A stretch of 21,264 nucleotides of DNA from a virus. Made by a program: the position numbers and the translations under genes. The notes beneath the pieces are model-generated. The model ran no database searches. It saw only the letters and a program-made list of their open reading frames with translations, and had not been told where the DNA came from. Below, piece after piece: positions 2,163-21,264 of the stretch. Position 1 is the first letter of the stretch. Each line of letters begins with the position of its first letter. The stretch lies in IMG/VR virus record IMGVR_UViG_3300006810_000490, positions 1 to 21,264 of that record; one strand, written 5' to 3'.

Positions 2163-3407
2163 ATGGCGTGGTATAACTTTCGAAGGTCCGCGCCGCAGCA
2201 GAAGAACGCATACAGTCTGGATTCCCCAGCGTTGCTCGATATGATGCTGCGCGCTGACAAACCTGGACTAAGCTCCGTGTCGTCCGAAGCGGCGATGCGC
2301 CTGTCAACCGTCTATTCCTGCATCAAGGTGCTGTCAGAAACCGTCAGCACACTGCCCTGTCACCTTTACAAACTAAGCGCTGACCGTATGACGCGGACGC
2401 ACGCTTATGACGACATTTTGCACACGCTTTGTATGCGCTCTCCGAACGATTGGCAGACGGCGCAAGAATTTTGGCAGATGCAGGTAGTCAATCTGTGCCT
2501 ACGTGGTAACAGCTACAACTACATAGTAAGAGGAGGATCTGGCCGTGTCGTTGCACTTCACCCGATACCTGTCGACTCAGTACATGTACATGTCGAAGCC
2601 CAAAATCGCATTCATTACAGCGTTACTATTGGCGAAAAAGGTAAGCAGCGTACCGAAATATTTGATCCGTCCGAAATTCTTCACTTTAAATCGATGTCTC
2701 TGGACGGCATTACTGGTATCAGCCCTATCTCATACCAGGGCTCTTTACTGGGCGGCGCCATTGAGCAGCGAGATCATAGTAATTCCGTGTTCGCAAACGG
2801 ATCGACGCCACGTGGTGTCCTCCAAGTCGACGGCACACTTTCAGACGACGCCTACAGCAACCTTAAAGATTCCTGGGAAGGAGCTCACGGTGGACGGTCT
2901 AATGCAAATCGTGTCGCTTTATTGGAAGCCGGCGTACGGTTTGAGCCTATATCCATGTCTCCAGGAGACGTGCAGTTATTAGAGACACGTAAGCTGTCTC
3001 GTGAAGAGATATGCGGCATTTTCCGCGTCCCACCGCACATGATTGCTGACTTATCGCGAGCAACATTCAGCAACATCGAAGAACAAACCCTCGACTTCTA
3101 TCGATCAGCCATCTACCCGTACATTCGCGGCTTTGAAACGCGCATGAACTACTCGCTGCTCGGCGACTCCACTCGTGAGTTCCGCTTTGAGGTAGGCGAG
3201 CTCCTACGTGGTGACTTTGCTGGCGAAGTCGACGCATACAAAAAGCTTTTGGAGATCGGCGTGATGTCACCCAACGAGGTCAGACACAAGCTTGATATGA
3301 ACCCACGCGAAGGCGGTGACGACTACGTTACTGACAGTAATAACTTGACGTTTGGCGCAAACGAACCAGAGCCGCCAGCGGAGGAAGAAGCAGATGAACA
3401 GGAATGA
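2163..3407 (+). CDS. Portal protein (HK97 gp3 type)
   Basis: This 414-residue protein would form the dodecameric ring at the unique capsid vertex through which DNA enters and leaves and onto which the connector assembles. Family-typical signs are the N-terminal stretch AAMRLSTVYSCIKVLSETV, the central GNSYNYIVR with HPIPVDSV, the GISPI segment followed by a run ending in FANGSTPRG, and the C-terminal REEICGIFRVPPHMIAD helix-loop with the run from SNIEEQTLDFY. The length is usual for the Phage_portal family (PF04860). A TAGGAGA ribosome site (2152-2158) overlaps the terminase stop. The C-terminus is acidic and disordered-looking (EPEPPAEEEADEQE) and its coding end overlaps the start of the protease gene by 14 bases. 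Confidence 0.96.
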   Translation: MAWYNFRRSAPQQKNAYSLDSPALLDMMLRADKPGLSSVSSEAAMRLSTVYSCIKVLSETVSTLPCHLYKLSADRMTRTHAYDDILHTLCMRSPNDWQTAQEFWQMQVVNLCLRGNSYNYIVRGGSGRVVALHPIPVDSVHVHVEAQNRIHYSVTIGEKGKQRTEIFDPSEILHFKSMSLDGITGISPISYQGSLLGGAIEQRDHSNSVFANGSTPRGVLQVDGTLSDDAYSNLKDSWEGAHGGRSNANRVALLEAGVRFEPISMSPGDVQLLETRKLSREEICGIFRVPPHMIADLSRATFSNIEEQTLDFYRSAIYPYIRGFETRMNYSLLGDSTREFRFEVGELLRGDFAGEVDAYKKLLEIGVMSPNEVRHKLDMNPREGGDDYVTDSNNLTFGANEPEPPAEEEADEQE

Positions 3408-4122
3408 GGCTATGAAAAAGGTATTCACGATTGAAAACCTAAAGTTGTATGACGACGAGGAGCGGAAATTTGAAGGTTACGCATCCACTTTCGGCAATGA
3501 AGATCGTGTTGGCGACATCGTTGAGCCGGGTGCGTTTACCAAGTCACTTTCTCAGCATAAAAACGAAGGCACTATGCCGTCGATGCTGCTTCATCACGAT
3601 ATGAAGCGCCCAATCGGCAAGTGGACAAGTATCGTCGAAGACGGAAAAGGCCTACGCGTTACCGGCACCCTGACTAAGGGTGTACGCGATGCAGACGAGG
3701 CATACGCGCTACTTAAAGACGGCGCGCTGAACAGTATGTCGATCGGTTACATCCCGACAAAAGAGGAGTACGACCGAAAGACCGGAGCTAACCTTTTGCA
3801 AGAGGTAAAGCTTCACGAAATTTCACTTGTCACTATCCCAGCAAATCGTATGGCTACGGTCACTGCGGTTAAGGATGCTGACGGTGAACTCAACGTGCGT
3901 GAGATCGAACGAGCACTGCGTGAAGCAGGTTTGTCTCGTCGCGAAGCGAAGGCACTACTGGCTGAAGGCTACAAAGCTTTGACGCCACAAGAGGACGCAG
4001 TCGAAGAATCAGAACCTGAGCGTGACGCTAAGGCCGACGAACGACAGCAACGCCTCAAGTCGATGTTGGACAAGCTGAACAACATCTATCCCCACACCTT
4101 AAAAGGAATAGGCAATGACTGA
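3394..4122 (+). CDS. Prohead maturation protease (HK97 gp4 / peptidase S78 type)
   Basis: This protein of about 242 residues would cleave the scaffold-like N-terminus of the capsid protein during head maturation. It carries the family start KFEGYASTFGNEDRVGDIV (about 25-43), the LLHHD motif with the candidate catalytic His67/68, GALNSMSIGY with the candidate nucleophile Ser114 or Ser116, and the LHEISLVTIPAN strand (140-151) that typically completes the site. The C-terminal 90 residues are charged and helical. I chose ATG 3394, eight bases behind GAGGA (3381-3385). ATG 3412 is also possible, eight bases behind AGGA (3400-3403), and would match the usual compact N-terminus. The farther upstream in-frame ATG at 3352 lies deep in portal coding sequence and is unlikely. 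Confidence 0.93.
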   Translation: MNRNEAMKKVFTIENLKLYDDEERKFEGYASTFGNEDRVGDIVEPGAFTKSLSQHKNEGTMPSMLLHHDMKRPIGKWTSIVEDGKGLRVTGTLTKGVRDADEAYALLKDGALNSMSIGYIPTKEEYDRKTGANLLQEVKLHEISLVTIPANRMATVTAVKDADGELNVREIERALREAGLSRREAKALLAEGYKALTPQEDAVEESEPERDAKADERQQRLKSMLDKLNNIYPHTLKGIGND

Positions 4123-5366: not shown

Positions 5367-5945
5367 ATGGCAGACCCTGTGACACTAGCTGAAGCAAGAC
5401 TGCACTTGCGTCTGCCTTCGAATATCACCACCGACGAACAGACTGAGATCACTCGTCTGATTTCGGTTGCGACGGAGTATGCGGAACAATTCACTAATCG
5501 ACTGTGGACTACAGGTTCACGAGTAGAGACGTTCGATTCGTTCCCTTACTCCGTCCCCCGGAAACGCCAAGGCTTATATTTGCCTGGCGGCAACATCAGT
5601 AGCATCACTAGCATTACTTACTACGACGCTGACTATGCACAGCAAACCTTAGCGTCGTCTGAGTATCGCCTAGTCGGTGCGCCAGAGCGCGCAACTGTTT
5701 ACCCAGGTATGGGCAAAGAGTGGCCGACTGACGTTGCAAACGAGCCTGATCACATCGCTGTTACTTATGCCCTTGACGGGACAGTCGGCGTTCCTGCGGC
5801 AGTAAAGCAAGCTGTTTTACTAACTGTAGGAGCGTTGTACGAGTACCGCGAGGACGGTGTCATCGACAATGCTGGCTTGGCACTTGTGAAAGCGCCCAAA
5901 GCCGCAGAGGACTTGCTTACACCTTACCGAATACGCATAGCGTAA
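5367..5945 (+). CDS. Head-tail connector (HK97 gp6 / phiE125 gp8 type)
   Basis: A 192-residue protein predicted to form the adaptor ring under the portal. The N-terminus (PVTLAEARLHLRLP, then an acidic stretch, then ITRLISVATEYAEQFTNRLW) is the helical signature of phage connector proteins of the gp6-like and phiE125 gp8-like families. A middle beta-rich part (LPGGNISSITSITYYDADYA) and the helical end VPAAVKQAVLLTVGALYEYRED complete the usual arrangement. A TAAGGAG ribosome site (5354-5360) lies six bases before ATG 5367. Its position directly after the capsid gene is canonical. Confidence 0.92.
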   Translation: MADPVTLAEARLHLRLPSNITTDEQTEITRLISVATEYAEQFTNRLWTTGSRVETFDSFPYSVPRKRQGLYLPGGNISSITSITYYDADYAQQTLASSEYRLVGAPERATVYPGMGKEWPTDVANEPDHIAVTYALDGTVGVPAAVKQAVLLTVGALYEYREDGVIDNAGLALVKAPKAAEDLLTPYRIRIA

Positions 5946-5954
5946 GGAGGTAAT

Positions 5955-6284
5955 ATGAGAGCAGGTTCTCTACGTCACACCGCGACGATTTACGAGCGGT
6001 CAGCGACACCCGATGCTTACGGCGCCCTAGACCACACAATGGTTGCGGACGCGGTGACGCATAAGTGTTCCATTAAACAGCGAACTTTCCGCGAGCGTGC
6101 GGAGAACGGTCAAATGATGTCGCGCATCGAGTTTGAGCTTCATTTTCGCTATAGCGAAGCCCTTGAGCTCATCAACCCAGGCGCACAGATAGACGTAGCC
6201 GGCAGACGGCTCGAAGTTCTGTCTTCTTCGGATATGGACGGCAAGCGAAAGCATGTCGTCATATTTGCGGAGGACGTCAGATGA
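5955..6284 (+). CDS. Head-tail adaptor / head closure (stopper) protein
   Basis: A 109-residue protein matching in length and pattern the SPP1 gp16-like family (Phage_H_T_join, PF05521), which caps the connector and stops DNA leaking out. The N-terminal MRAGSLRHTATIYERSATPD and the middle segment with CSIKQRTFRERAENGQ are family-typical. So is the C-terminal run of strands ending in GRRLEVLSSSDMDGKRKHVV. A very strong AAGGAGGT site (5944-5951) overlaps the previous stop, with a short spacer to ATG 5955. The gene ends in an ATGA overlap with the tail terminator gene. Confidence 0.9.
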   Translation: MRAGSLRHTATIYERSATPDAYGALDHTMVADAVTHKCSIKQRTFRERAENGQMMSRIEFELHFRYSEALELINPGAQIDVAGRRLEVLSSSDMDGKRKHVVIFAEDVR

Positions 6285-7190: not shown

Positions 7191-7529
7191 ATGGCTCTTA
7201 GTAAAGATCAGATTCTAGGCGCAGTGGACTTTAGCTTTGTAGAGGTAGAAGTCCCTGAATGGGGAGGCACAGTTCGTATTCGCGGCCTATCGGCAGCAGA
7301 ACGCGACCAGTTTGAGGCACGACTAGGTGTGTCCAACGATTTAACCAATATGCGCGCACGTCTTGTCGTCAGTTGCATGGTCGACGATGACGGTAACCGC
7401 ATTTTTAAGGACAGCGAAGCGAATGAGCTCGGTAAGAAAAACGCCGCGGTGATTACGCGACTGTTCGACCAGGTACGCAACCTTTCTGGCATGTCAGACG
7501 AAGCGTTAGGCATTGCTGAAAAAAACTAG
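7191..7529 (+). CDS. Tail assembly chaperone, short form (lambda gpG analogue)
   Basis: A 112-residue acidic protein with a strong AAGGAGGAG site (7179-7187) before ATG 7191. It reads VDFSFVEVEVPEWGGTVRIR, then LSAAERDQFEARLG, then a helical second half (NAAVITRLFDQVRNLSGMSD), which is the usual layout of the first half of a siphovirus tail assembly chaperone. In lambda, gpG and the frameshift product gpGT coat the tape measure protein and recruit tube subunits. The stop TAG (7527-7529) comes immediately after the slippery heptamer at 7520-7526, so most ribosomes would make this short form and some would continue in the -1 frame. Confidence 0.9.
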   Translation: MALSKDQILGAVDFSFVEVEVPEWGGTVRIRGLSAAERDQFEARLGVSNDLTNMRARLVVSCMVDDDGNRIFKDSEANELGKKNAAVITRLFDQVRNLSGMSDEALGIAEKN

Positions 7530-7852
7530 CATGCCCGGTACGTCGGTTTAAGTTCCGACTTGCGCTTGCTTTAGGTATGACGGTTCGACAACTCGAAACT
7601 CAACTTGAAGCAAGCGAGCTCAACGAGTGGATGGCGTTTTTCAATCTAGAACCCTGGGGCGCTGTCCGCGAGGACTATCGGGCAGGAGTGATCGCCGCAA
7701 CGTTGGTCAACGTCAACGGCGGCAAGAAAGGCGGTAAGCCGGCAGAGGTGACAGACTTTTTCGATCTGTACACCAGGCACACAAACCGTAAGCAAAGCAA
7801 CGAACAACAAATCAACATCTTTAAACGATATGCGGAGGCACGACGTGGCTAA
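7191..7852 (+). CDS. Tail assembly chaperone, -1 frameshift fusion (lambda gpGT analogue)
   Basis: A -1 slip at 7520-7526 joins the 112-residue short form to the frame starting at base 7526, giving a predicted 220-residue protein ending at TAA 7850-7852. The added 108 residues begin LACPVRRFKFRLALALGMTV and continue with the WMAFFNLEPWG and YRAGVIAATLVNV segments. These are hallmark features of the 'T' half of siphovirus chaperones, which often starts with a conserved Cys-Pro and an Arg/Phe-rich stretch exactly like this. The conserved part lies upstream of the first ATG in that frame (7577), and that ATG lacks a good ribosome site, so expression by frameshift is far more likely than independent initiation. 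Confidence 0.9.
7520..7526 (+). promoter_or_regulatory. Programmed -1 ribosomal frameshift site (A AAA AAC)
   Basis: In the zero frame the codons are GAA AAA AAC TAG, so the heptamer A AAA AAC fits the X XXY YYZ rule exactly and is followed at once by the stop. The frame entered by a -1 slip is open to 7852 and encodes the conserved second half of the chaperone. A small hairpin GTCGG/CCGAC (7542-7546 with 7555-7559, eight-base loop) lies 15 bases downstream. It is weak and somewhat farther away than usual for a stimulatory structure. The TAG itself may help by slowing the ribosome. Confidence 0.9.
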
Positions 7853-10748: not shown

Positions 10749-11303
10749 GTGATTTCGATGCCATCTAATGTGGCAGCAGCGCTTGCGTCTGCTAGTTACA
10801 GAACAGCCATCTTGATCAACTTGCCTGGCACAGGTTTCAAGGTCACTGACAACCACAAGCCTATAACTTACGCAGGTGTTACGTACTCGCCCGGCGACCA
10901 GGCACTGCTTGGCGCTAGTAGCGTACAGCGCACAACATCGCTGTCATCAAGCAGCTACCAAATTAAGTTTGCTGGCGCAGATCGTACGGCCTATCAGGAG
11001 TACGTAGACGACGCTCACTTCGGTGAAGAAGCGTCTGTTTATTTAGCGTTCCTCGATGATGAGTATGAGCTCTTAAGCAGTACGAGCGTCATCAAGCTCT
11101 ACGCAGGACTTGTCGATACATGGCAGTTCGATGAGACCAAAACCAAAAGCGATTTCACGATAAAGCTTACAAGTCACTGGGCGGCTTTTGAGGTCGTAAC
11201 TGGGCGGTTCACAAACACGTCGAGTCAAGAAGAGTACTACCCGAACGACACAATTTTTCAGTATTCGCAGCAGGAAAAGCTGCCCATTAAGTGGGGACAG
11301 TAA
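10749..11303 (+). CDS. Distal tail / tail-tip protein, possibly DUF2163-like
   Basis: A 184-residue protein. I chose GTG 10749 because AGGAGGT (10737-10743) lies five bases before it; ATG 10758 in frame would leave a spacer of 15 bases. The protein is beta-rich: YRTAILINLPGTGFKVTDN, then ITYAGVTYSPGDQALLGA, a strand pair ending in YQIKFAGAD, VYLAFLDDEYELL and LYAGLVDTWQFDE. This order resembles small tail proteins found between tape measure and hub genes in many phages, including the N-terminal part of DUF2163-type proteins. It probably forms the ring linking tube end and hub. The position is a strong argument; the exact family is not certain. It ends three bases before the giant hub-fibre gene. 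Confidence 0.7.
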   Translation: MISMPSNVAAALASASYRTAILINLPGTGFKVTDNHKPITYAGVTYSPGDQALLGASSVQRTTSLSSSSYQIKFAGADRTAYQEYVDDAHFGEEASVYLAFLDDEYELLSSTSVIKLYAGLVDTWQFDETKTKSDFTIKLTSHWAAFEVVTGRFTNTSSQEEYYPNDTIFQYSQQEKLPIKWGQ

Positions 11304-11306
11304 AAG

Positions 11307-14300
11307 ATGGTTGATCCGTTAACTATAGGTGTAATCGTAGTCGGCGCACTGACGGCTGCTAGTTATTACCAACAGCGCAAAATGCAACGCGAGGCTGAGA
11401 AACAAGCCAACGAAATGGCCTCCCATCAGATTTCAGGCCACGACAGTAACCGTGCTTTGTACACGGTCTACGGACGAGCCTTGGTCGGCACGACTACGCT
11501 TTATAAGCGTGTCTCGAGAAAGCAAGTGCCGATGGCTAACGCATCCTTTACTAACTACCGTGGCGGCGGCGGCTCACCAGATACATCCGATAAGCGTTGG
11601 GGCCTAAATCGCTTTTTGTACCGTATCTCGTCATTGAGCAACGGGCCGATTGACGGTATCGAAAAAGTGCTGATCGACGGCGAATCGCACCTTGCGTCAC
11701 GATTTACAGCAGGTCACTCGCGTCACTTTGAAGCAGCAGTATCGTTAGGCCCGACAGCGGGTAACTACTTTTCCAACCTAAAAACTACGTACTCAACCGA
11801 TTTCAGTCAGTGGGATTCAAGCAAAAAAGGTCAAGGTGTCGCGTACGTCGTAGAGCGCTTTTGGTTTGATAAGTCTAACCCGGCATACCAGGGCGAACCG
11901 CAAACACAATACTTGGTTCGCGGCCGTAAGCTTTACGACCCGCGACTAGACAGCACCGTTGCCGGTGGCAGCGGGTCGCATCGTAGCGCAACACCATCAA
12001 CGTGGGCGTTTAGCGACAACCCCGCGCTTGCTTTGCTCGATATGCTGACAAACACGGAGTACGGACGAGGCGTTGATTATTCAGAGTGTGATCTGCCTAG
12101 TTTTATAACAGCAGCAAACAAGTGCGACACGTATGTCGACATCCCGGCTAGAGCTACCAACCAAACGGGCAGCCAATTAGTTGTCTACGATCCCCATCTA
12201 GGGGTTACGTACGAGATAGCCGATAACGGCATCATACCTAACTACCGGATGGACCAAATTACGACAGGCTCTTTTGCCAACAAGCAAAAGCGTTTTCGTC
12301 TAAACATGGCTGTCGACAACAGCAAAGAAGTACTCGACAACATACAACAAATACTCCAATCCTTTAGAGCCAACTTGCATCACATCAACGGCGAGTACGC
12401 TGTACACATGGACGATGTGGCTTCGCCTGTTATTACTCTCAATGACGACGACATTATAGGTGGCTTGAAAATATCTCAGGGAGACAGAAAGCAGCGCATC
12501 AATCGCATGACTGCTAAGTTTCTCAACGCAAACAAGCACTACAAAACCGACCAAGTGTCTTGGCCTCCGCTCGATGAAACATCGGGCTCTCAATATCAAA
12601 CCTATCTAACGGCAGACTCCGGTGAGAAGTTACACAAAACTGTGACGCTTACCGGGTGCACTGATTACTACCAGGCTGAAGATATTGCTGAGTACCTAGT
12701 GCGCGAAAGCCGCGTGACGCTCACGGCAACTGGTACTTTTGGCAGTCGCTGTTTTAACTTAGTACCGGGCGACGTCGTAGCACTCGATTACGACAGTGCG
12801 GGTTACAGCGGTAAGTACTTCATTGTCGACCAGGTAGGCGTCGACATTTCGTCGATGAACGTCAAACTCAGCCTGCGTGAATACGACTCGTCGATATACA
12901 CCTGGAACGCCAACAGAGGTAACGAGCCTATTGGTCTGTTCTTCGACGAGGAACAGCAATACAACGTAACGCCTACATCGCCAACTATTGGCACCGTTAG
13001 CGCTGACTCAATTGCGTTAAGCGACGGCACTGCTGCCCTGCGTCTCAACATACCGTTCAGCGACATCCCAGAAGAGGCGTTGTCTGTAGAGATTGGCTGG
13101 TCAGTGCAGAACGCGGACGTTTATACGTCGCAAGTCATACTAGACGAGACCGCCACAAAAGCAGAGTTTTTAATCGGTATTGACGACCAAGTCATAGATT
13201 TACGCATACGCTACTTCGTAGCCAACGCTGACGGTATACAACTACCTAGCGGCTACAGCACGACAACCTTTACTTTACCGGCAGTCAGCGGCACCAAACT
13301 CGACAACATTGAAGACAACGCAACGCGTAACCAGGTGTTTCAACAAGACGCGCAGCCCAGTGGCGGTGCGTACCAAACTGGTGACATTTGGATCGACACC
13401 AACGACAACTTCAAAATGTACATGTACGACAGTGGCGCTTGGGTATTACGCGCTGACAGTCGTATTGCTACAGCGCTGCAAGACGCCGCAGGCGCGCAGT
13501 CTACTGCTGACGGCAAGATTGACACGTTTTATCAAGATAACGCCCCTACTAGTGCGTCAGAAGGCGACCTATGGATCGACACGAACGACGACAACAAACT
13601 TTACCGTTACGACGGCACTAACTGGCAAGCCGCCCGTGACTCAGGTATCGCAGAAGCCATTGCAGACGCAGAAACAGCACAAAGCACGGCTGACGGTAAG
13701 ATTACAACGTTTTTTGCTGCGTCAACGGCCACGCCAACTGCTGAAGGCGTTGGCGACATGTGGTATCAGACTGACAACGCGATCATGCAGCGTTGGAACG
13801 GTAGCACTTGGAACGACGTAGCTAGTTACAACACAGGCGATTTGGCTGATTTAGACACTGTTGGCAACTCGCAGATAGACAACGACTCTATCAACATCGA
13901 TAAGCTCGACGACTTGCAGTCTACTAACTACTCACAAGGCGTCTCGGGCTGGAAGTTAACTAAAGACGGTACATTTGAAACCGGCGATGGTACGTTCCGT
14001 GGCGAGGTGACAGCAACTTCAGGAACCATTGGCGGCTTCAGTATTGGATCAACGGCGCTGACCGCTGGCTCAGGGTCGTCGGCGGTCGGTATCCACACCG
14101 TCAAAGGTATTTACCTTGGCGCTACTTCGTTTTCAAGCTCACCTTTTAGAGTCAACACCGCAGGACAATTAACGGCAACAAACGCGAGCATTACGGGCGC
14201 CGTAACAGCTACCGATGGAGCTATTGCCGGGATCAACATTGACGCAACAAAACTGTACGCAGGGACAGGCGATTGGGCTAATAGCAATACCGGGTTTTAT

Positions 14301-17300
14301 CTCGACAACGCAGGCAAGTTTAGCCTCAAAGATAAGCTTTTCTTTGACCCGTCAAACAACACTCTTACAGTCGACGGTAACATTACTGCTGACGTCATTA
14401 CTGCAAAACAAAACCTTGTGGTTCTAGGCGATTTACAAGCAAGCAGCGTAGCTGCTGGTTCAATTACGCGAGCCATGCTGTCTCAAGACGCGTTAGACGA
14501 AATTTTTGGATCGCTTGCGTCTTCAGTTGGAGGGTCAAACGGCGATTTCAAAGACGGTACGGGAACGTTTACTACGTCTGGCGGTTCTGTGACGCTAGGC
14601 ACGTCCTCTGATAAATTTAATCATGGGTCGTCTGATGTCGAAGTCGAATTCAACATCAATACATTCTTTTATTCCACGACTAACTACACACAAGCGCAAG
14701 CGCAAGCCACGCTTACGTTTGAAGCAACTGCTGACGGCACGTTCAACGATCTGAACTCAGCAGACAAAACACACACACTGCAATTCTTAGAATACGACCT
14801 AAGTTCATACTATGGGTACACGTACCTGGTGTATCACATCAACACTGCAATCACTAAAACGTTTACTAGTGGGTCAGGTAGTGATCTTGCAGACAACACT
14901 GATGTGCAATTTAAAGTTGCAGTTTCCAGCGTGGGGTCAGCATTTACTAATCAAACATTACCGTTTTCTGTTGCCGCAAACGAAGGCGTTACAGGCGTTA
15001 CATCAACAGGCGGCAACGCTGACACGCTCGACAACTTAGACTCAACCGCTTTCCTCCGTTCGAACGTGGACGACACGTTTGACGCTGACCTTACGATTAC
15101 GGGTGATCTTTCACTGCAAGGCGCTCTGAATATCACAGGAGACATAAACAGCTACAACGTCACTGACTTAGACGTTACCGACAAGACGATAACCGTCAAC
15201 AGCGGCAACGCTCAGGAACTAAGCGACGGCTCTGGCCTTATCGTTGATCGCGGCACTGCGGATAGCGCTTCTATTACATGGAGTGAGACAAATGATCGGT
15301 TTGTTATTACGGATGGACTTTCTCTTGAAAACGGCAAAAACCTAAGAATTGCCAACGCTGGGAGCAGTAACGGCCGTTTAGATTTAGCGAACACAACGTC
15401 TACTTATGATTGGCTTTTATATCATCAGGACAATGGGAGCGTGATACTAACGATCAGCGGCACGGGAGGCGGTGAGTTTATTTTCGATGCCGACGCATCA
15501 GATTACACCAGTGCAACGCTTACGGTAGGCGGATCGCAAATAAGCGCTACTAAGATTAGCCAGTGGAATACAGCCTATGGCTGGGGCAATCACTCGACGC
15601 AAAACTACGCTGTCACAACAGGCGACACGTTTACAGGCAATCTGACTCTTGGAACAGGCACTGACAGCACTGCGCTCGTTTTCCCTGATAAAAATGTTGA
15701 CGATGATCCAGATGCCGCAAGTGACAAGCGTCAGCTAATCAAAATGGGCAATGGCGGCAACGGTGGTATGTACCAAACCACTGGTCGCGGCGGTCTTATG
15801 ATTGCGTCTGCTGACGACAGCGTGATCATCGCGTCAGGCGATATTGGGCGCAACTTTGATCCTAACGCAGGCGGACAGAATCCAAACCCTGATTCTGAAG
15901 AGTTATATCTAGTTACAGACGGCGGTATACGTTTTACTACCGGCCTCCAAGGCGGCTTTAGTGGCAGTGCAGACTACACACCTCGAACAGCCATATTAAG
16001 TCAGCATGGGCAGCTTCAAATGGGAACGTCGGGTACTGCTGACAGACCTACGTATTCGTTTAACGGTGACGTTAATACAGGCATGTATAAGCCATCAAAT
16101 GACGTGCTTGGCTTTTCGGCTGGCGGCCATCAGCGTATGCGCGTTACCACAAGCGCAGTACAAAACTATGTAAAGCTACATACGCAAACGTACACGGCGA
16201 GCAGTACGCTGGATTTCACCAATGTTTTTCGAGTCAATGGTCTTGACGTAGCTTCGCACACATACAGTGGACAACAACAAATACGTTTTTATCATGGTTC
16301 TTGGGCAGGCTACTATTACCTAAACAGCGGCAGTCCAAACGGTGAAAAAGAAAACATCCGCTTTACCTCGCACGGTCAAACTCAAACTAACAACAAGATC
16401 GAAATTAATGACGGCACTGCATGGCGCAAGGTACTGACAGAAACCAGTAACATCACGGTTGGCAAGGTAACGGCGTCAGGTAGCAACAACGTATATGCAG
16501 GCGTGTTCACTGGCGAGACTGCTCCAAACACTACGTCACTCGGCGTAAAGATCGTAACCACAAACGGAGCAAACGATGTCGCCCTACTCGTAGAGCAAAC
16601 AGACGGTACTGACCTGTTTAAAATTACAGGTCAGGGCGTAGGTTCATTCAGTCAGCGTATTAGCGTCCAAAACCAAGATATAACGGGTACACGAATAGAG
16701 AATTGGCAGGACGCTTATAGCTGGGGCGATCACGCTGATGCTAATTATTTATTATCAGAGACTAGCCACACGGATGTCGTGGTCGATGGTGACTTTAACT
16801 CCACTGGACTGATGAAGCGTGGATCATCAGCGGGCTCGTATAGCGTTATTGCTGATAACTCTAGCAATTGGAACACAGCTTACGGCGACAAAATTAACAG
16901 TGCGAACTTTAATACTAGTACAGGCATTCTGACTCTTACGCGCCAAGACGCAGGCACAGTAACAGTTGATCTTGACGGCAGATTCCAAGGTATTGATAGC
17001 GCACACTCTCGGTTTACGCCGCCAGATCAAGGCAACCTTTCGACTTATCCCGTGTACTACAAGGTCGCAGAGGTCAACACAGGCAATGGGGGTTTACACC
17101 TTAAAGGTCAACTTAATAACCACGTAGAGAGTTTCGGCACACAAGACTTTGACATCACTATTTACGGACGGGAGCAAAACTCAGGACAGAACGTAGAGAT
17201 TGCAGGTAGTTTTAACGTCGGCAAGTCCGGCGTTGGCGTCCGTGTGGTGCAGGCCACCAATACAGGCACCTACTACCGATATGACGTTTACATTGTGCTT

Positions 17301-20300
17301 ACACGCTATTCACTAGTGCGTGTGGATCTATACAAGTTTGGCTCATCGTCTCTTGTATCTAGCCCCACAAGCACAACGACTCAGCCGACAGGGTTTGCGG
17401 TCGAGCTAGATACCACGAGCAAAATAGAAGGCTCGTATGTCATACAGAACAGCCTAATTTACAACAATCTGCACTCAGGCTCAGTACTAACCACCGCAGG
17501 AGCGATAACGGCAGGCGGATCGTCCTCTTCGCTGGGTTACTACGTAGGGTCAACCCAAGTTATCAATGGAAACCGTGACCTAGTAAACATAGGCACGATC
17601 GGATCAGGTGCTATTACCAGTAGCTCGACTATCACAGCAACCACAACTCTCAGCGCACAGGACGGGCTGTTTTCTGGTTACGTAGACGCTAACGGATTGG
17701 TTAACGCCTATATGTTCCGTGTCGATGATACGACGGTCATAGATAGCAATCGCAACATATTAAACATAAACAGTATAAGACTCGACTCTACTGCTGATGT
17801 CACCCTTAGCTCAACGGGACACGCGTTTCAGACTGGCTCGGCAAACGGTGTCAACCTAGCGATAGATAACAACGAAATCCAAGCTAGAAACAACGGATCT
17901 AGTTCTTCCTTGTATTTGCAGGGAGATGGCGGCGCTGTCTATGTCAACGCCAATCTTTCTGCAAAAGTATTTTTTCAAGGTGGCGCAACGACGGCTAGTG
18001 CAACTATTGAAGGAGCGCCAAATCAAGACGCAGTGCTAAAACTGCTAGAAACTGGGACCGGGGATGTAGGCGCACATTTGTACTACGACGGTGGCGACAA
18101 CAAGCTACATATAAAAACAGGCAACAGCACCCCAGCGACGCGCATGACGTTTTTGCGCGACACCACGGCAGTAGGTATTGGAAATGTTAACCCTAGTAAA
18201 ACGCTTGATGTTGCAGGCGAGATACGAAGCACCGCAAAAATTACTGTAGACCAAGGATCGTATGATCCTGTCCAAAGTGCAGCAATGTCGTACTCGGGGC
18301 TAGTGATCCAAAGTAATGACGGCAACATGGACCTGCTGTCATACGACGACAACTCTTCAGTCGCAAACAACATTGGCTTTGGACGATTTTCGTCAACTGA
18401 CGGATCGCTTATTCATAAGTTTGGCATTACGCATTGGGCAAACACGGGAAGCCAAGGAAGCAACACAGGCAATAAGCTGTCGTTTAACTACGGTACAAAC
18501 ACAAACCCCTGGAGCAACGCTGAAAAATTCTCAATAACGTCAGGCGGCGATGTTACTGCCAGCAACAACATAACAGCACAAGGCTCTTTCATTACGGCAA
18601 CTGCATCTAGCGCTCAAGGTATATACGCCGGAAGTACGCAAGTCTTTGAAGGCTCAACGCGTAACCTCAAAAATATTGGAACAATTAGTGCTGGCTCTAC
18701 GACAGTAAATGGGCAGCTAACCTTTACTAGTAATTTAAACCTTGGCAGTGGACTCACGCGACTGGTGTGGGGTTGGGGCGCAAGTAGCGGCTCAAGTTTA
18801 CGCAATTACTTAGCACCACGTAATGACGCAGATGACGCGTGGAACTATAGCCATGAGTTTGGCTACGATCACAATGCGAACGCATGGTACATAGACGATC
18901 AACTGCATCTTGGGCATCGGCTAACGCACAAAGATGACACAGACACCTACCTGCAATTTGATGCTAACCGTATCCGTCTTATTGCGAACGGCACTACAAA
19001 GATTGATACAAATAACACGTATGTAACGACTGGGGACATTGCTGACTTCATTGAAAGCGAAGCTGACACGCTTGACTCGGTAACAGGTCGAGGCGCTACG
19101 ACCACAAACGACGTGCAAGTCGGTCACTTAGGTGTAGATGGCGCGTCAAGTTCTAGCTACCCGTTATACGTGCACGGTAGCATTGCTCAATCGTCAGGAA
19201 GCATTTACTCATTCGGTGACTTCATCATGGGTAACGGTGGGCTTAAGAAAGGCTCAACCACTGTCATTGACAGCAGCCGCAACATACTTAACGTCGGCAC
19301 CATAACGAGCAGTGGCAAGCTGGAAGTTAATCAAGCAGGCAATGGAACGAGCAATGTACCCAGCAGTGTTGCTGAGCTTTCTGGGCAAGAATCTACTGGC
19401 GTACTCAAAGCGCTGTCCCTAGTAAATAGCGTAAACGCTACATTTGGCAACGGAACAGAGCTTGCATTCCATAACGCCAGTATGTATTCGCCAACGGGAG
19501 CAGTGAGGGTCATCCAAGCTGGCGATGTAGTTACCGATTCAAAAATGGTTTTGCAAATCTATCGTGGCGGCCTAAAAGATGCGGTTGTAATTGACCACGA
19601 TGAAAACATGACTGTCGGCAACAACATAACGGCAGACGGGTCTTTTATAACAGCCACCTCATCCAGTGCACAGGGGATCTATGCTGGAAGCACGCAAGTG
19701 TTTGAAGGCTCTACCCGTAACCTAAAAAATATAGGCACGATTTCGTCGGGAGCGCTCACCTCAACAAGCGCCGTATCCGGTCTCGCAATTAGAATTAGCG
19801 GCACTGACGTTATTACTTCCAACCGCGTTGTAAAGCCAACGCAATATCAGGGACAAGATTTCGTAAGAACAGGAACGACAACAGCTAGCATTCATAAAAT
19901 GTACGGCGTTGTTTTGGGCCACCAGCCAGAAGACGGCCACGTTACGTCTCCGTTTTTTCATAACGATTTAGGAAACTTCGAGGCTCGCGGAGGAACAGTT
20001 ACTGTCGGGGGGCTAAGTTATACCCCTGCTATGACTAACGCATTTAAAGCGCACGGCAACTCTGCTTCCTGGGGCAACGCAAATTACAGCGGATCGACGA
20101 TGACGGTCACGCTTACCACTTTGCCAAAGAATTTAAATTACGGCGGCTACATTGGCATTTCTTTTGGCAATAGCTCTTGGGCACCAGCGTCATTGAAAAT
20201 TGAAATATCTACTGATGGCGGCTCTACGTGGACAACGCGACTTAACGACTCGTCAACGAAAACGATATATTTCACAACTACGGGCACAGGCGGCACTCCA

Positions 20301-21264
20301 CTTAACGCTATTCGATTTACGATAGGGCAAGCTGTCAATACCACGTCGATACGTGTCACAAATATTTGGGCATACAATTACAACAGTAATGGGATGCACA
20401 ATTACTTCATCGACAAAGCTGGCGACACTTTGTACGGTGAACTTAGCTTTAATGATGCAAACACCAAGCTGCTAGAGGGCGGTGGTAATCGGATAAGAGT
20501 ACAGACTGATTCTGGTTATGTTGAGGTCGGCGCAGGAAATACTGGTCACGCTCATTTTGTTACTGATAGACCAGAATACTACTTTGACAAACAGATAAAG
20601 GTAGACACTGGAATCATAGGGTCTTACAACGAAGATCTCGTGCTTCGGCGTGCAGGCAATTCTGGCGATCAGATAACACTAACTACGACAGGCGTCACTT
20701 TTGCCTCTGGCTACAATCTTAGTATGTCTGGCTCTATTTCTTCGGGCGCTATCACGGCTACAGGCCAGATCTACACGACTCGTGCTGATCGCGCGTTTTA
20801 CGCTAGTAATTCGTCAACTTACGTGCAAGTAGGGCCAAACAACCAGGGCGCGGCAGGTACATTTGGAGCGCACCGATTAACAACAAATACTGGTTTGGAT
20901 TACACAACATACGTAGGTTATGACTGCTATTACGATGACTCGGATGAAAAGTGGCACGCATTACGCACAAACCTAGGCCGCAAGTGGAAAACTAATTTCG
21001 GTGGATATCACCAAAACAGATTTACAATAAGCACGTATGACGGCGGCGGAACGTCAGGCAGTAGTATTTCGGCTGGATGGCTTGAAGCAGATTGGGAAGA
21101 AAAGTTCGGTGTAGATGCGGCAGGCGTGGTCGATATCGGTGACAGTCTTAGAATTGGCAGCACAACCGTTATTACTTCTAGTCGTAACCTAGTAAATATT
21201 GGCACCATCTCATCGGCCGCTATTACTAGTAGTGGTAATATGTCACTTACAGGTGAACTCGATA
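11307..21264 (+). CDS. Giant gpJ-like tail hub fused to a repeat-rich tail fibre (3' end outside window)
   Basis: The frame from ATG 11307 stays open to the right edge: 3319 complete codons and no stop. A moderate GGGGA site lies at 11293-11297. Residues 5-21 are hydrophobic. The tail-hub part (about 1-555) shows WAFSDNPALALLDMLTNTEY, a segment with NSKEVLDNIQQILQSFRA, DDDIIGGLKISQGDRKQRIN and the RESRVTLTATGTFGSRCFNL stretch, matching lambda gpJ order (Phage-tail_3 type). An FN3/Ig-like domain follows (about 556-660), then three repeats of about 61 residues (676-842), a GWKLTKDGTFETGDGTFRGE segment at about 881, and thousands of residues of Gly/Ser/Thr/Asn-rich beta repeats. The hub should sit at the tail tip and the fibre should bind host receptors. 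A C-terminal chaperone or adhesin domain is likely past the edge. Confidence 0.93.
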   Translation, partial: MVDPLTIGVIVVGALTAASYYQQRKMQREAEKQANEMASHQISGHDSNRALYTVYGRALVGTTTLYKRVSRKQVPMANASFTNYRGGGGSPDTSDKRWGLNRFLYRISSLSNGPIDGIEKVLIDGESHLASRFTAGHSRHFEAAVSLGPTAGNYFSNLKTTYSTDFSQWDSSKKGQGVAYVVERFWFDKSNPAYQGEPQTQYLVRGRKLYDPRLDSTVAGGSGSHRSATPSTWAFSDNPALALLDMLTNTEYGRGVDYSECDLPSFITAANKCDTYVDIPARATNQTGSQLVVYDPHLGVTYEIADNGIIPNYRMDQITTGSFANKQKRFRLNMAVDNSKEVLDNIQQILQSFRANLHHINGEYAVHMDDVASPVITLNDDDIIGGLKISQGDRKQRINRMTAKFLNANKHYKTDQVSWPPLDETSGSQYQTYLTADSGEKLHKTVTLTGCTDYYQAEDIAEYLVRESRVTLTATGTFGSRCFNLVPGDVVALDYDSAGYSGKYFIVDQVGVDISSMNVKLSLREYDSSIYTWNANRGNEPIGLFFDEEQQYNVTPTSPTIGTVSADSIALSDGTAALRLNIPFSDIPEEALSVEIGWSVQNADVYTSQVILDETATKAEFLIGIDDQVIDLRIRYFVANADGIQLPSGYSTTTFTLPAVSGTKLDNIEDNATRNQVFQQDAQPSGGAYQTGDIWIDTNDNFKMYMYDSGAWVLRADSRIATALQDAAGAQSTADGKIDTFYQDNAPTSASEGDLWIDTNDDNKLYRYDGTNWQAARDSGIAEAIADAETAQSTADGKITTFFAASTATPTAEGVGDMWYQTDNAIMQRWNGSTWNDVASYNTGDLADLDTVGNSQIDNDSINIDKLDDLQSTNYSQGVSGWKLTKDGTFETGDGTFRGEVTATSGTIGGFSIGSTALTAGSGSSAVGIHTVKGIYLGATSFSSSPFRVNTAGQLTATNASITGAVTATDGAIAGINIDATKLYAGTGDWANSNTGFYLDNAGKFSLKDKLFFDPSNNTLTVDGNITADVITAKQNLVVLGDLQASSVAAGSITRAMLSQDALDEIFGSLASSVGGSNGDFKDGTGTFTTSGGSVTLGTSSDKFNHGSSDVEVEFNINTFFYSTTNYTQAQAQATLTFEATADGTFNDLNSADKTHTLQFLEYDLSSYYGYTYLVYHINTAITKTFTSGSGSDLADNTDVQFKVAVSSVGSAFTNQTLPFSVAANEGVTGVTSTGGNADTLDNLDSTAFLRSNVDDTFDADLTITGDLSLQGALNITGDINSYNVTDLDVTDKTITVNSGNAQELSDGSGLIVDRGTADSASITWSETNDRFVITDGLSLENGKNLRIANAGSSNGRLDLANTTSTYDWLLYHQDNGSVILTISGTGGGEFIFDADASDYTSATLTVGGSQISATKISQWNTAYGWGNHSTQNYAVTTGDTFTGNLTLGTGTDSTALVFPDKNVDDDPDAASDKRQLIKMGNGGNGGMYQTTGRGGLMIASADDSVIIASGDIGRNFDPNAGGQNPNPDSEELYLVTDGGIRFTTGLQGGFSGSADYTPRTAILSQHGQLQMGTSGTADRPTYSFNGDVNTGMYKPSNDVLGFSAGGHQRMRVTTSAVQNYVKLHTQTYTASSTLDFTNVFRVNGLDVASHTYSGQQQIRFYHGSWAGYYYLNSGSPNGEKENIRFTSHGQTQTNNKIEINDGTAWRKVLTETSNITVGKVTASGSNNVYAGVFTGETAPNTTSLGVKIVTTNGANDVALLVEQTDGTDLFKITGQGVGSFSQRISVQNQDITGTRIENWQDAYSWGDHADANYLLSETSHTDVVVDGDFNSTGLMKRGSSAGSYSVIADNSSNWNTAYGDKINSANFNTSTGILTLTRQDAGTVTVDLDGRFQGIDSAHSRFTPPDQGNLSTYPVYYKVAEVNTGNGGLHLKGQLNNHVESFGTQDFDITIYGREQNSGQNVEIAGSFNVGKSGVGVRVVQATNTGTYYRYDVYIVLTRYSLVRVDLYKFGSSSLVSSPTSTTTQPTGFAVELDTTSKIEGSYVIQNSLIYNNLHSGSVLTTAGAITAGGSSSSLGYYVGSTQVINGNRDLVNIGTIGSGAITSSSTITATTTLSAQDGLFSGYVDANGLVNAYMFRVDDTTVIDSNRNILNINSIRLDSTADVTLSSTGHAFQTGSANGVNLAIDNNEIQARNNGSSSSLYLQGDGGAVYVNANLSAKVFFQGGATTASATIEGAPNQDAVLKLLETGTGDVGAHLYYDGGDNKLHIKTGNSTPATRMTFLRDTTAVGIGNVNPSKTLDVAGEIRSTAKITVDQGSYDPVQSAAMSYSGLVIQSNDGNMDLLSYDDNSSVANNIGFGRFSSTDGSLIHKFGITHWANTGSQGSNTGNKLSFNYGTNTNPWSNAEKFSITSGGDVTASNNITAQGSFITATASSAQGIYAGSTQVFEGSTRNLKNIGTISAGSTTVNGQLTFTSNLNLGSGLTRLVWGWGASSGSSLRNYLAPRNDADDAWNYSHEFGYDHNANAWYIDDQLHLGHRLTHKDDTDTYLQFDANRIRLIANGTTKIDTNNTYVTTGDIADFIESEADTLDSVTGRGATTTNDVQVGHLGVDGASSSSYPLYVHGSIAQSSGSIYSFGDFIMGNGGLKKGSTTVIDSSRNILNVGTITSSGKLEVNQAGNGTSNVPSSVAELSGQESTGVLKALSLVNSVNATFGNGTELAFHNASMYSPTGAVRVIQAGDVVTDSKMVLQIYRGGLKDAVVIDHDENMTVGNNITADGSFITATSSSAQGIYAGSTQVFEGSTRNLKNIGTISSGALTSTSAVSGLAIRISGTDVITSNRVVKPTQYQGQDFVRTGTTTASIHKMYGVVLGHQPEDGHVTSPFFHNDLGNFEARGGTVTVGGLSYTPAMTNAFKAHGNSASWGNANYSGSTMTVTLTTLPKNLNYGGYIGISFGNSSWAPASLKIEISTDGGSTWTTRLNDSSTKTIYFTTTGTGGTPLNAIRFTIGQAVNTTSIRVTNIWAYNYNSNGMHNYFIDKAGDTLYGELSFNDANTKLLEGGGNRIRVQTDSGYVEVGAGNTGHAHFVTDRPEYYFDKQIKVDTGIIGSYNEDLVLRRAGNSGDQITLTTTGVTFASGYNLSMSGSISSGAITATGQIYTTRADRAFYASNSSTYVQVGPNNQGAAGTFGAHRLTTNTGLDYTTYVGYDCYYDDSDEKWHALRTNLGRKWKTNFGGYHQNRFTISTYDGGGTSGSSISAGWLEADWEEKFGVDAAGVVDIGDSLRIGSTTVITSSRNLVNIGTISSAAITSSGNMSLTGELD
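13332..13833 (+). repeat. Three tandem protein repeats of about 61 residues in the hub-fibre protein
   Basis: Copies begin near 13332, 13515 and 13698; the second and third are exactly 183 bases apart. Each copy has a short start ending in TF or VF, then a GDxW(I/Y)xTDN or TND strand and a YxYDG or QRWNG turn with a Trp. The cores read GDIWIDTNDNFKMYMYDSGA, GDLWIDTNDDNKLYRYDGTN and GDMWYQTDNAIMQRWNGSTW. Copies one and two end in an alanine-rich linker closing with AQSTADGK. The repeats are clearly related in protein but have diverged in DNA. They probably form small beta modules joined by helical linkers between the hub and the fibre shaft. Confidence 0.88.
15564..16898 (+). repeat. WNTAYGWGNH-type motifs in the fibre
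   Basis: Three related motifs occur in the giant protein: WNTAYGWGNH (15564-15593), WQDAYSWGDH (16704-16733) and WNTAYGDKIN (from 16869). Each is preceded by a short segment ending in Ile-Ser-Gln, Ile-Glu-Asn or Ser-Ser-Asn. Similar motifs are familiar from long fibres of environmental phages, where they often precede a new shaft repeat block. Confidence 0.75.
16059..16152 (+). other. FNGDVNTGMY fibre motif region (chaperone-associated type)
   Basis: The giant protein here reads FNGDVNTGMYKPSNDVLGFS and then AGGHQRMRV. This 'gd.nTGmy.p..d.l.fs.gG..r.rv' pattern is common in phage fibres that end in a self-cleaving intramolecular chaperone (peptidase S74 type). A second such sign, VGIGNVNPSKTLDVAGEI, lies at 18171-18224. 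The chaperone domain itself is not in the window. Confidence 0.65.
18564..18698 (+). repeat. Long-range duplicated fibre segment, copy 1
   Basis: A 45-codon segment beginning NNITAQGSFITATASSAQGI and passing through YAGSTQVFEGSTRNLKNIGT is repeated at 19620-19754, 1056 bases downstream. By my alignment by eye only about four residues differ, while about 25 codons differ silently. The segment is part of the fibre shaft of the giant protein. Confidence 0.85.
19620..19754 (+). repeat. Long-range duplicated fibre segment, copy 2
   Basis: Partner of 18564-18698. The copy begins NNITADGSFITATSSSAQGI and keeps the stretch YAGSTQVFEGSTRNLKNIGT unchanged in protein. Many third codon positions differ from copy 1. 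The copies are separated by 352 codons of unrelated or weakly related fibre sequence, so this is a shuffled block and not a tandem repeat. Confidence 0.85.

Follow-up and report, generated by a model that had tools for sequence, protein, structure and literature searches.

The giant gene at the end of the 21,264-nucleotide window (the whole stretch of DNA analysed, IMG/VR virus record IMGVR_UViG_3300006810_000490) probably encodes a trimeric siphovirus tail tip of the gpJ type, in which the central fibre is a giant modular fibre of the Peptidase_S74 (S74) kind. Four observations underlie this reading: a single frame, its coding character, a hub fold, and five relatives in which this architecture is found complete, S74 end included. 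The parts expected from an earlier note on this DNA were all recovered, namely a gpJ-like hub, an FN3-like domain, three tandem modules of ~50 aa and a shaft, of which ~2,370 residues are in view (Table 1).

A giant open frame in the tail operon

The frame runs stop-free from its ATG at 11307 to 21263, confirming the earlier note's single uninterrupted frame of at least 3319 codons, and is still open at the contig end. The window is a complete public virus record, and the 3′ end of the frame falls beyond it. The proposal to obtain downstream sequence and locate the stop failed: the last 688 residues, used as query, found no other contig continuing the window, and an exact 29-base string near the window end found no IMG/VR contig continuing its last bases. 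The other two forward frames hold 8–31 stops per 300 codons (first 3,300 codons), and the open frame is thus far beyond chance.

The gene comes after the tape measure in an operon with the order of an HK97-like siphovirus: terminase, portal, protease, capsid, connectors, tail terminator, major tail protein, assembly chaperones, tape measure, 184-aa tail protein and the giant gene. Its length is 4.2 times that of the 784-aa tape measure, in agreement with the more than fourfold ratio claimed before. The 184-aa protein matched the baseplate hub N-terminal attachment domain PF09931 weakly (23.8 bits, cut-off 26). The two adjoining tail assembly chaperone genes (PHROG 344; Phage_tail_T, PF06223; window 7191–7852) occupy the lambda G/T position, and a programmed frameshift may join them.

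Table 1. Features of the giant gene and its upstream neighbours (window coordinates)
Feature	Position	Strand	Evidence
Tape measure protein, 784 aa	8384..10738	+	annotation search
184-aa tail protein between tape measure and giant gene	10749..11303	+	PHROG 2048
Open frame, at least 3,319 codons, no stop before contig end	11307..21263	+	frame translation
Predicted tail hub, gpJ / T5 pb3 type, residues 1-676	11307..13334	+	PF13550, PHROG, PDB sequence match, Foldseek
Predicted FN3-like beta-sandwich at hub end, residues about 560-659	12984..13283	+	model pLDDT 70-88; many FN3 Foldseek chains
Three tandem ~50-aa modules, gDlWiDTndxnKxYrydGxxW, residues about 676-835	13332..13811	+	read from translation
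Phage_Tail_Tip (PF09327), residues 856-907	13872..14027	+	Pfam match; present also in L003, L097
Conserved neck module, residues 952-1334	14160..15308	+	common to all complete giant genes
Modular fibre shaft, residues 1361-3319	15387..21263	+	composition and motif scan
Direct repeat copy 1, 132 nt, contains linker motif	18555..18686	+	DNA repeat search
Direct repeat copy 2, 79% identical	19611..19742	+	DNA repeat search

The tail hub

Sequence comparison and the predicted fold both identify residues 1–676 as a tail hub of the gpJ/T5 pb3 type that ends in an FN3 domain. The hub opens with a hydrophobic helix (residues 4–35); residues 337–496 match Phage-tail_3 (PF13550) at 48.7 bits, against a curated cut-off of 23, and the hub also matches PHROG 31 and PHROG 5616 (PHROG label, central tail fibre J). 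A profile of four hub sequences searched against the PDB recovered T5 pb3 (E = 3e–30) and lambda J (E = 3e–4). Structure prediction of pieces of the protein had been recommended earlier, and for the hub it was informative: an AlphaFold2 model built from 35 relatives (mean pLDDT 69) matched, by Foldseek, T5 pb3 (E = 1.8e–30), DT57C (4e–31) and lambda J (8k35/8iyk, 1.4e–23), with a TM-score of about 0.5 on a model of that mean pLDDT. Further matches were to T1, JBD30 and the GTA virion chain 6tba, and FN3 chains matched the C-terminal part of the model.

Relatives with complete genes and the S74 end

The closest relative, IMGVR_UViG_3300047368_000187 (hereafter G001), has a hub 92–94% identical to that of the window and a complete gene, joined from two loci, that encodes 4,556 aa and ends in Peptidase_S74. 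Residues 952–1334, the neck module, recovered 29 loci when used as query, eight of which carry hub and neck module in one frame; four of these eight are complete (L097, 3,476 aa; L098, 3,131 aa; L099, 2,954 aa; L102, 2,979 aa). With G001 there are thus five independent complete genes of the same architecture, which bears out the earlier claim that one frame encodes both a hub and a very long fibre. All five have Peptidase_S74 at the C-terminus, where they match the S16 long tail fibre distal subunit gp37, and all five have a Ser followed by a Lys at +5, the spacing of the endoNF self-cleavage dyad S911/K916 (PMC8326128). We infer that the missing C-terminus of the window gene is likewise a Peptidase_S74 intramolecular chaperone.

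The neck module is 73–84% identical to those of G001 and L097 and 43–63% identical to those of L098–L102, where the hubs are only 22–26% identical (for L099, 63% in the neck module and 24% in the hub). In a quick hub tree, with some long branches, the giants fell into two separate clades. Siphoviral hubs and giant S74 fibres are joined, with the same neck module, in at least two distant hub lineages. Free-standing fibres also share cassettes with the hub-fused genes; one of them (L184:5906–15631) is a complete 3,241-aa S74 tail fibre that lacks a siphoviral hub and shares a cassette with the window. Since two distant hub lineages share a neck module, fibre cassettes seem, from these sequences, to move between hub-fused and free-standing forms. 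A short stretch of the window fibre is also found in a 4,304-codon frame, open at its 5′ end, that is predicted to be rich in coiled coils (L142:3–12914).

Some neighbouring genes of G001 (locus L008) deserve mention in their own right. A T7-like single-subunit RNA polymerase (2–2254, –; PF00940, E = 5e–70), cut by the contig end, lies beside its HK97-like siphoviral tail genes, a combination found in Xp10-type phages. Genes for a helix-turn-helix-like protein and a tyrosine integrase (PF00589) occupy 2655–4054 (+), on the other strand from the tail genes, and this pair suggests that G001 is a temperate phage. Finally, a gene with weak, sub-threshold DUF2460 similarity (5705–6256, –) follows the giant gene, whereas distal-tail-type genes usually lie upstream.

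Tandem modules, neck and shaft

The window and G001 proteins share 92% identity up to residue 676, show no relationship from there to residue 951, and are 73% identical from 952 to 1334; that is, the tandem modules of the window are replaced in G001 by unrelated sequence. In the place of these modules, the 4,556-aa protein (L002) has at residues about 690–905 a stretch that by eye looks like a LamG/concanavalin-type lectin, with no Pfam call. The neck module holds a predicted beta-sandwich domain at about residues 1081–1226. Here the piecewise structure prediction that had succeeded for the hub gave no confident fold: the model was partial and jelly-roll-like, with pLDDT 52 for the module and 76–88 over much of the domain region, and it had no significant PDB match (best Foldseek E, 2e–3). 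A tblastn search of 50,697 cultured or deposited phage records did not find the module.

The shaft is rich in Gly, Ser, Thr and Asn and has almost no Cys. A linker motif, xGSTxVixxSRNLxNIGTISSGAIT, recurs near residues 2149, 2452, 2658, 2804 and 3293; past residue 1334 the window and G001 share only short stretches around this recurring linker (GSTQVFEGSTRNLKNIGTISSGAIT). At the DNA level the linkers sit in direct repeats of 132–300 nt. Scanning for the motif and searching the DNA for repeats revealed these; blastp self-comparison reported no internal repeats. We infer from this arrangement that cassettes have been exchanged by recombination at the linkers.

Codon-position patterns and dN/dS indicate that translation continues well beyond the hub. 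The neck module, compared between the window and L097 (dN 0.11, dS 1.8; codon-position identities 85/92/50%), is by this measure under purifying selection. The distal fibre has in-frame homologues in patches to about residue 3093, diverging mostly at third positions (for residues 2811–3047 against L184, codon-position identities were 66/72/30%), with dS values mostly saturated in these distal stretches.

Length survey and alternative explanations

Complete hub genes among the fetched relatives are bimodal in length. Across all fetched loci we counted 71 complete hub-bearing frames; 67 encode 557–1,156 aa with no S74, and the remaining four are of at least 2,954 codons with S74 (G001 makes five), S74 being found in the long class only. 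Cultured hubs from this family, sampled as controls, were of 670–1,417 aa. PF13550 was present in 133 of 399 sampled Pseudomonadota genomes, where the longest among the frames listed was 1,863 codons; frames in the sampled Alphaproteobacteria reached 1,709 codons once a run of N was excluded. We discarded as an artefact a 32,612-codon PF13550 frame in genome G058, which is a run of N.

The giant gene might be an ordinary gpJ/Tal gene that has no special architecture and merely marks the upper extreme of a continuous size range. In lambda gpJ a hub is already joined to a central fibre, and extensions of at least 2,000 residues have been reported for Tal/gpJ proteins (PMC7291167), a precedent that also removes the novelty which the earlier note had seen in the hub–fibre fusion as such. 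The gap between the two length classes, the confinement of S74 to the longer one and the 1,863-codon maximum in the PF13550-positive genomes nevertheless argue against a continuous range, and we consider this explanation unlikely. A search of the literature on giant hub–fibre proteins found no closer precedent. As a candidate precedent for giant tail genes, P-SS2 was set aside: its largest listed fibre ORFs are of 1,740 and 1,627 aa and are unfused to a hub. In the Vibrio phage D79 record (L010), 23297–32497 encodes a hypothetical protein of about 3,066 aa; a tail fibre gene of 1,553 aa lies a few genes upstream of it.

It is improbable that hub and fibre are separate proteins in the virion, whether through proteolysis of one initial chain or through additional production of the fibre from an internal start. 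S74 domains self-cleave (PMC7582827, PMC8326128), so some processing of such proteins is normal, and stand-alone fibres do share cassettes with the fused genes. This cleavage, however, takes off only the C-terminal ~100 residues, and within the giant gene we found no strong Shine–Dalgarno sequence at a second in-frame start that could serve as an internal ribosome site, whereas most of the neighbouring genes have one.

An assembly or sequencing artefact that joined separate hub and fibre genes, or lost a stop, is very improbable and is refuted in general terms: the 132–300 nt direct repeats inside the genes could mislead short-read assembly, and contigs often end inside the gene, but the parts follow the same order in complete genes on five other contigs, the neck modules of the window and G001, 73% identical, are each in frame with a hub, and repeated chance joining in the same frame is implausible. 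Such breaks were common, with 7 of the 12 contigs that have a hub frame of >1,200 codons ending within the gene, as expected from the prediction that it would be missed or fragmented in partial contigs. Because contigs often break inside it, host-recognition genes are under-annotated in viromes.

Proposed architecture and significance

In the tail-tip reading that we prefer, the trimeric state, the central position, receptor binding, signal relay and the S74 domain of the window phage are the proposed elements. The hub (~676 N-terminal residues) would close off the tube beneath the tail's distal ring, like lambda gpJ and T5 pb3, and the FN3 domain and the short repeated modules would connect it to the neck module. 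After the neck would come the central fibre, of >2,300 residues, built of exchangeable cassettes separated by the recurring linker motif. The predicted C-terminal S74 chaperone would trimerise and fold the fibre and then cut itself off. Distal cassettes may bind a receptor on the host surface, and binding would be relayed along the continuous polypeptide until the hub opens.

The fibre would then be a physically long tip appendage. Beta-structured phage fibres extend about 0.05–0.09 nm per residue, and tail length is ~0.15 nm per tape-measure residue. By these per-residue rules we estimate, very roughly, that the visible shaft would span 120–210 nm and the tail about 120 nm. Tentatively, these phages could represent a class of uncultured siphoviruses in which a DNA-gating hub and a giant, cassette-built S74 fibre, at least about as long as the tail, form one covalent trimer. 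If so, recognition of the host at a distance from the virion would be coupled mechanically to the DNA gate, and cassette swaps at repeated linkers within one gene would drive host-range evolution. Should virions confirm one continuous chain, they would offer a testable system for how distant receptor binding opens a tail.

Comparison with known systems

The closest cultured hub is that of Pelagibacter phage HTVC202P (gp46, a putative tail protein of 959 aa, 30% identity), which has the same gene order after the tape measure; this gene and those of related IMG/VR hubs, however, stop after the hub region and have no S74. RcGTA resembles the window in the fold match to 6tba and in the weak resemblance of the 184-aa protein to the RcGTA-type hub attachment domain, but in RcGTA and roseophage R4C the megatron and the fibre are separate proteins (PMC10276861). 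The S74 end of the complete relatives matches Peptidase_S74 fibres (S16 gp37 and the distal fibre of Vibrio phages nt-1/KVP40), which are not fused to a siphoviral hub.

Among solved hubs, T5 pb3 (949 aa) is the nearest in both sequence and fold. The long, L-shaped T5 fibre pb1 ends in an intramolecular chaperone (1,396 aa, of which 133 residues are chaperone; PMC4690869). In T5, pb3 and pb1 are encoded by separate genes, whereas the window encodes both parts in one polypeptide, in effect a pb3-type hub with a giant, probably chaperone-ended fibre.

Lambda gpJ (1,132 aa) belongs to the same hub fold family and, like the window protein, runs in one chain from hub to central fibre with FN3 domains between. 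It is three to four times shorter, lacks an S74 end and is distant in hub sequence (PDB E = 3e–4). The gene thus departs in length and composition from gpJ proper (about 1,100 aa, no S74), being of at least 3,319 aa itself and having relatives that end in S74. Because lambda gpJ is itself a hub–fibre protein, the novelty is limited to size and composition: what is new is the length and the S74 end, with a lambda-type tail tip extended to 3,000–4,600 residues.
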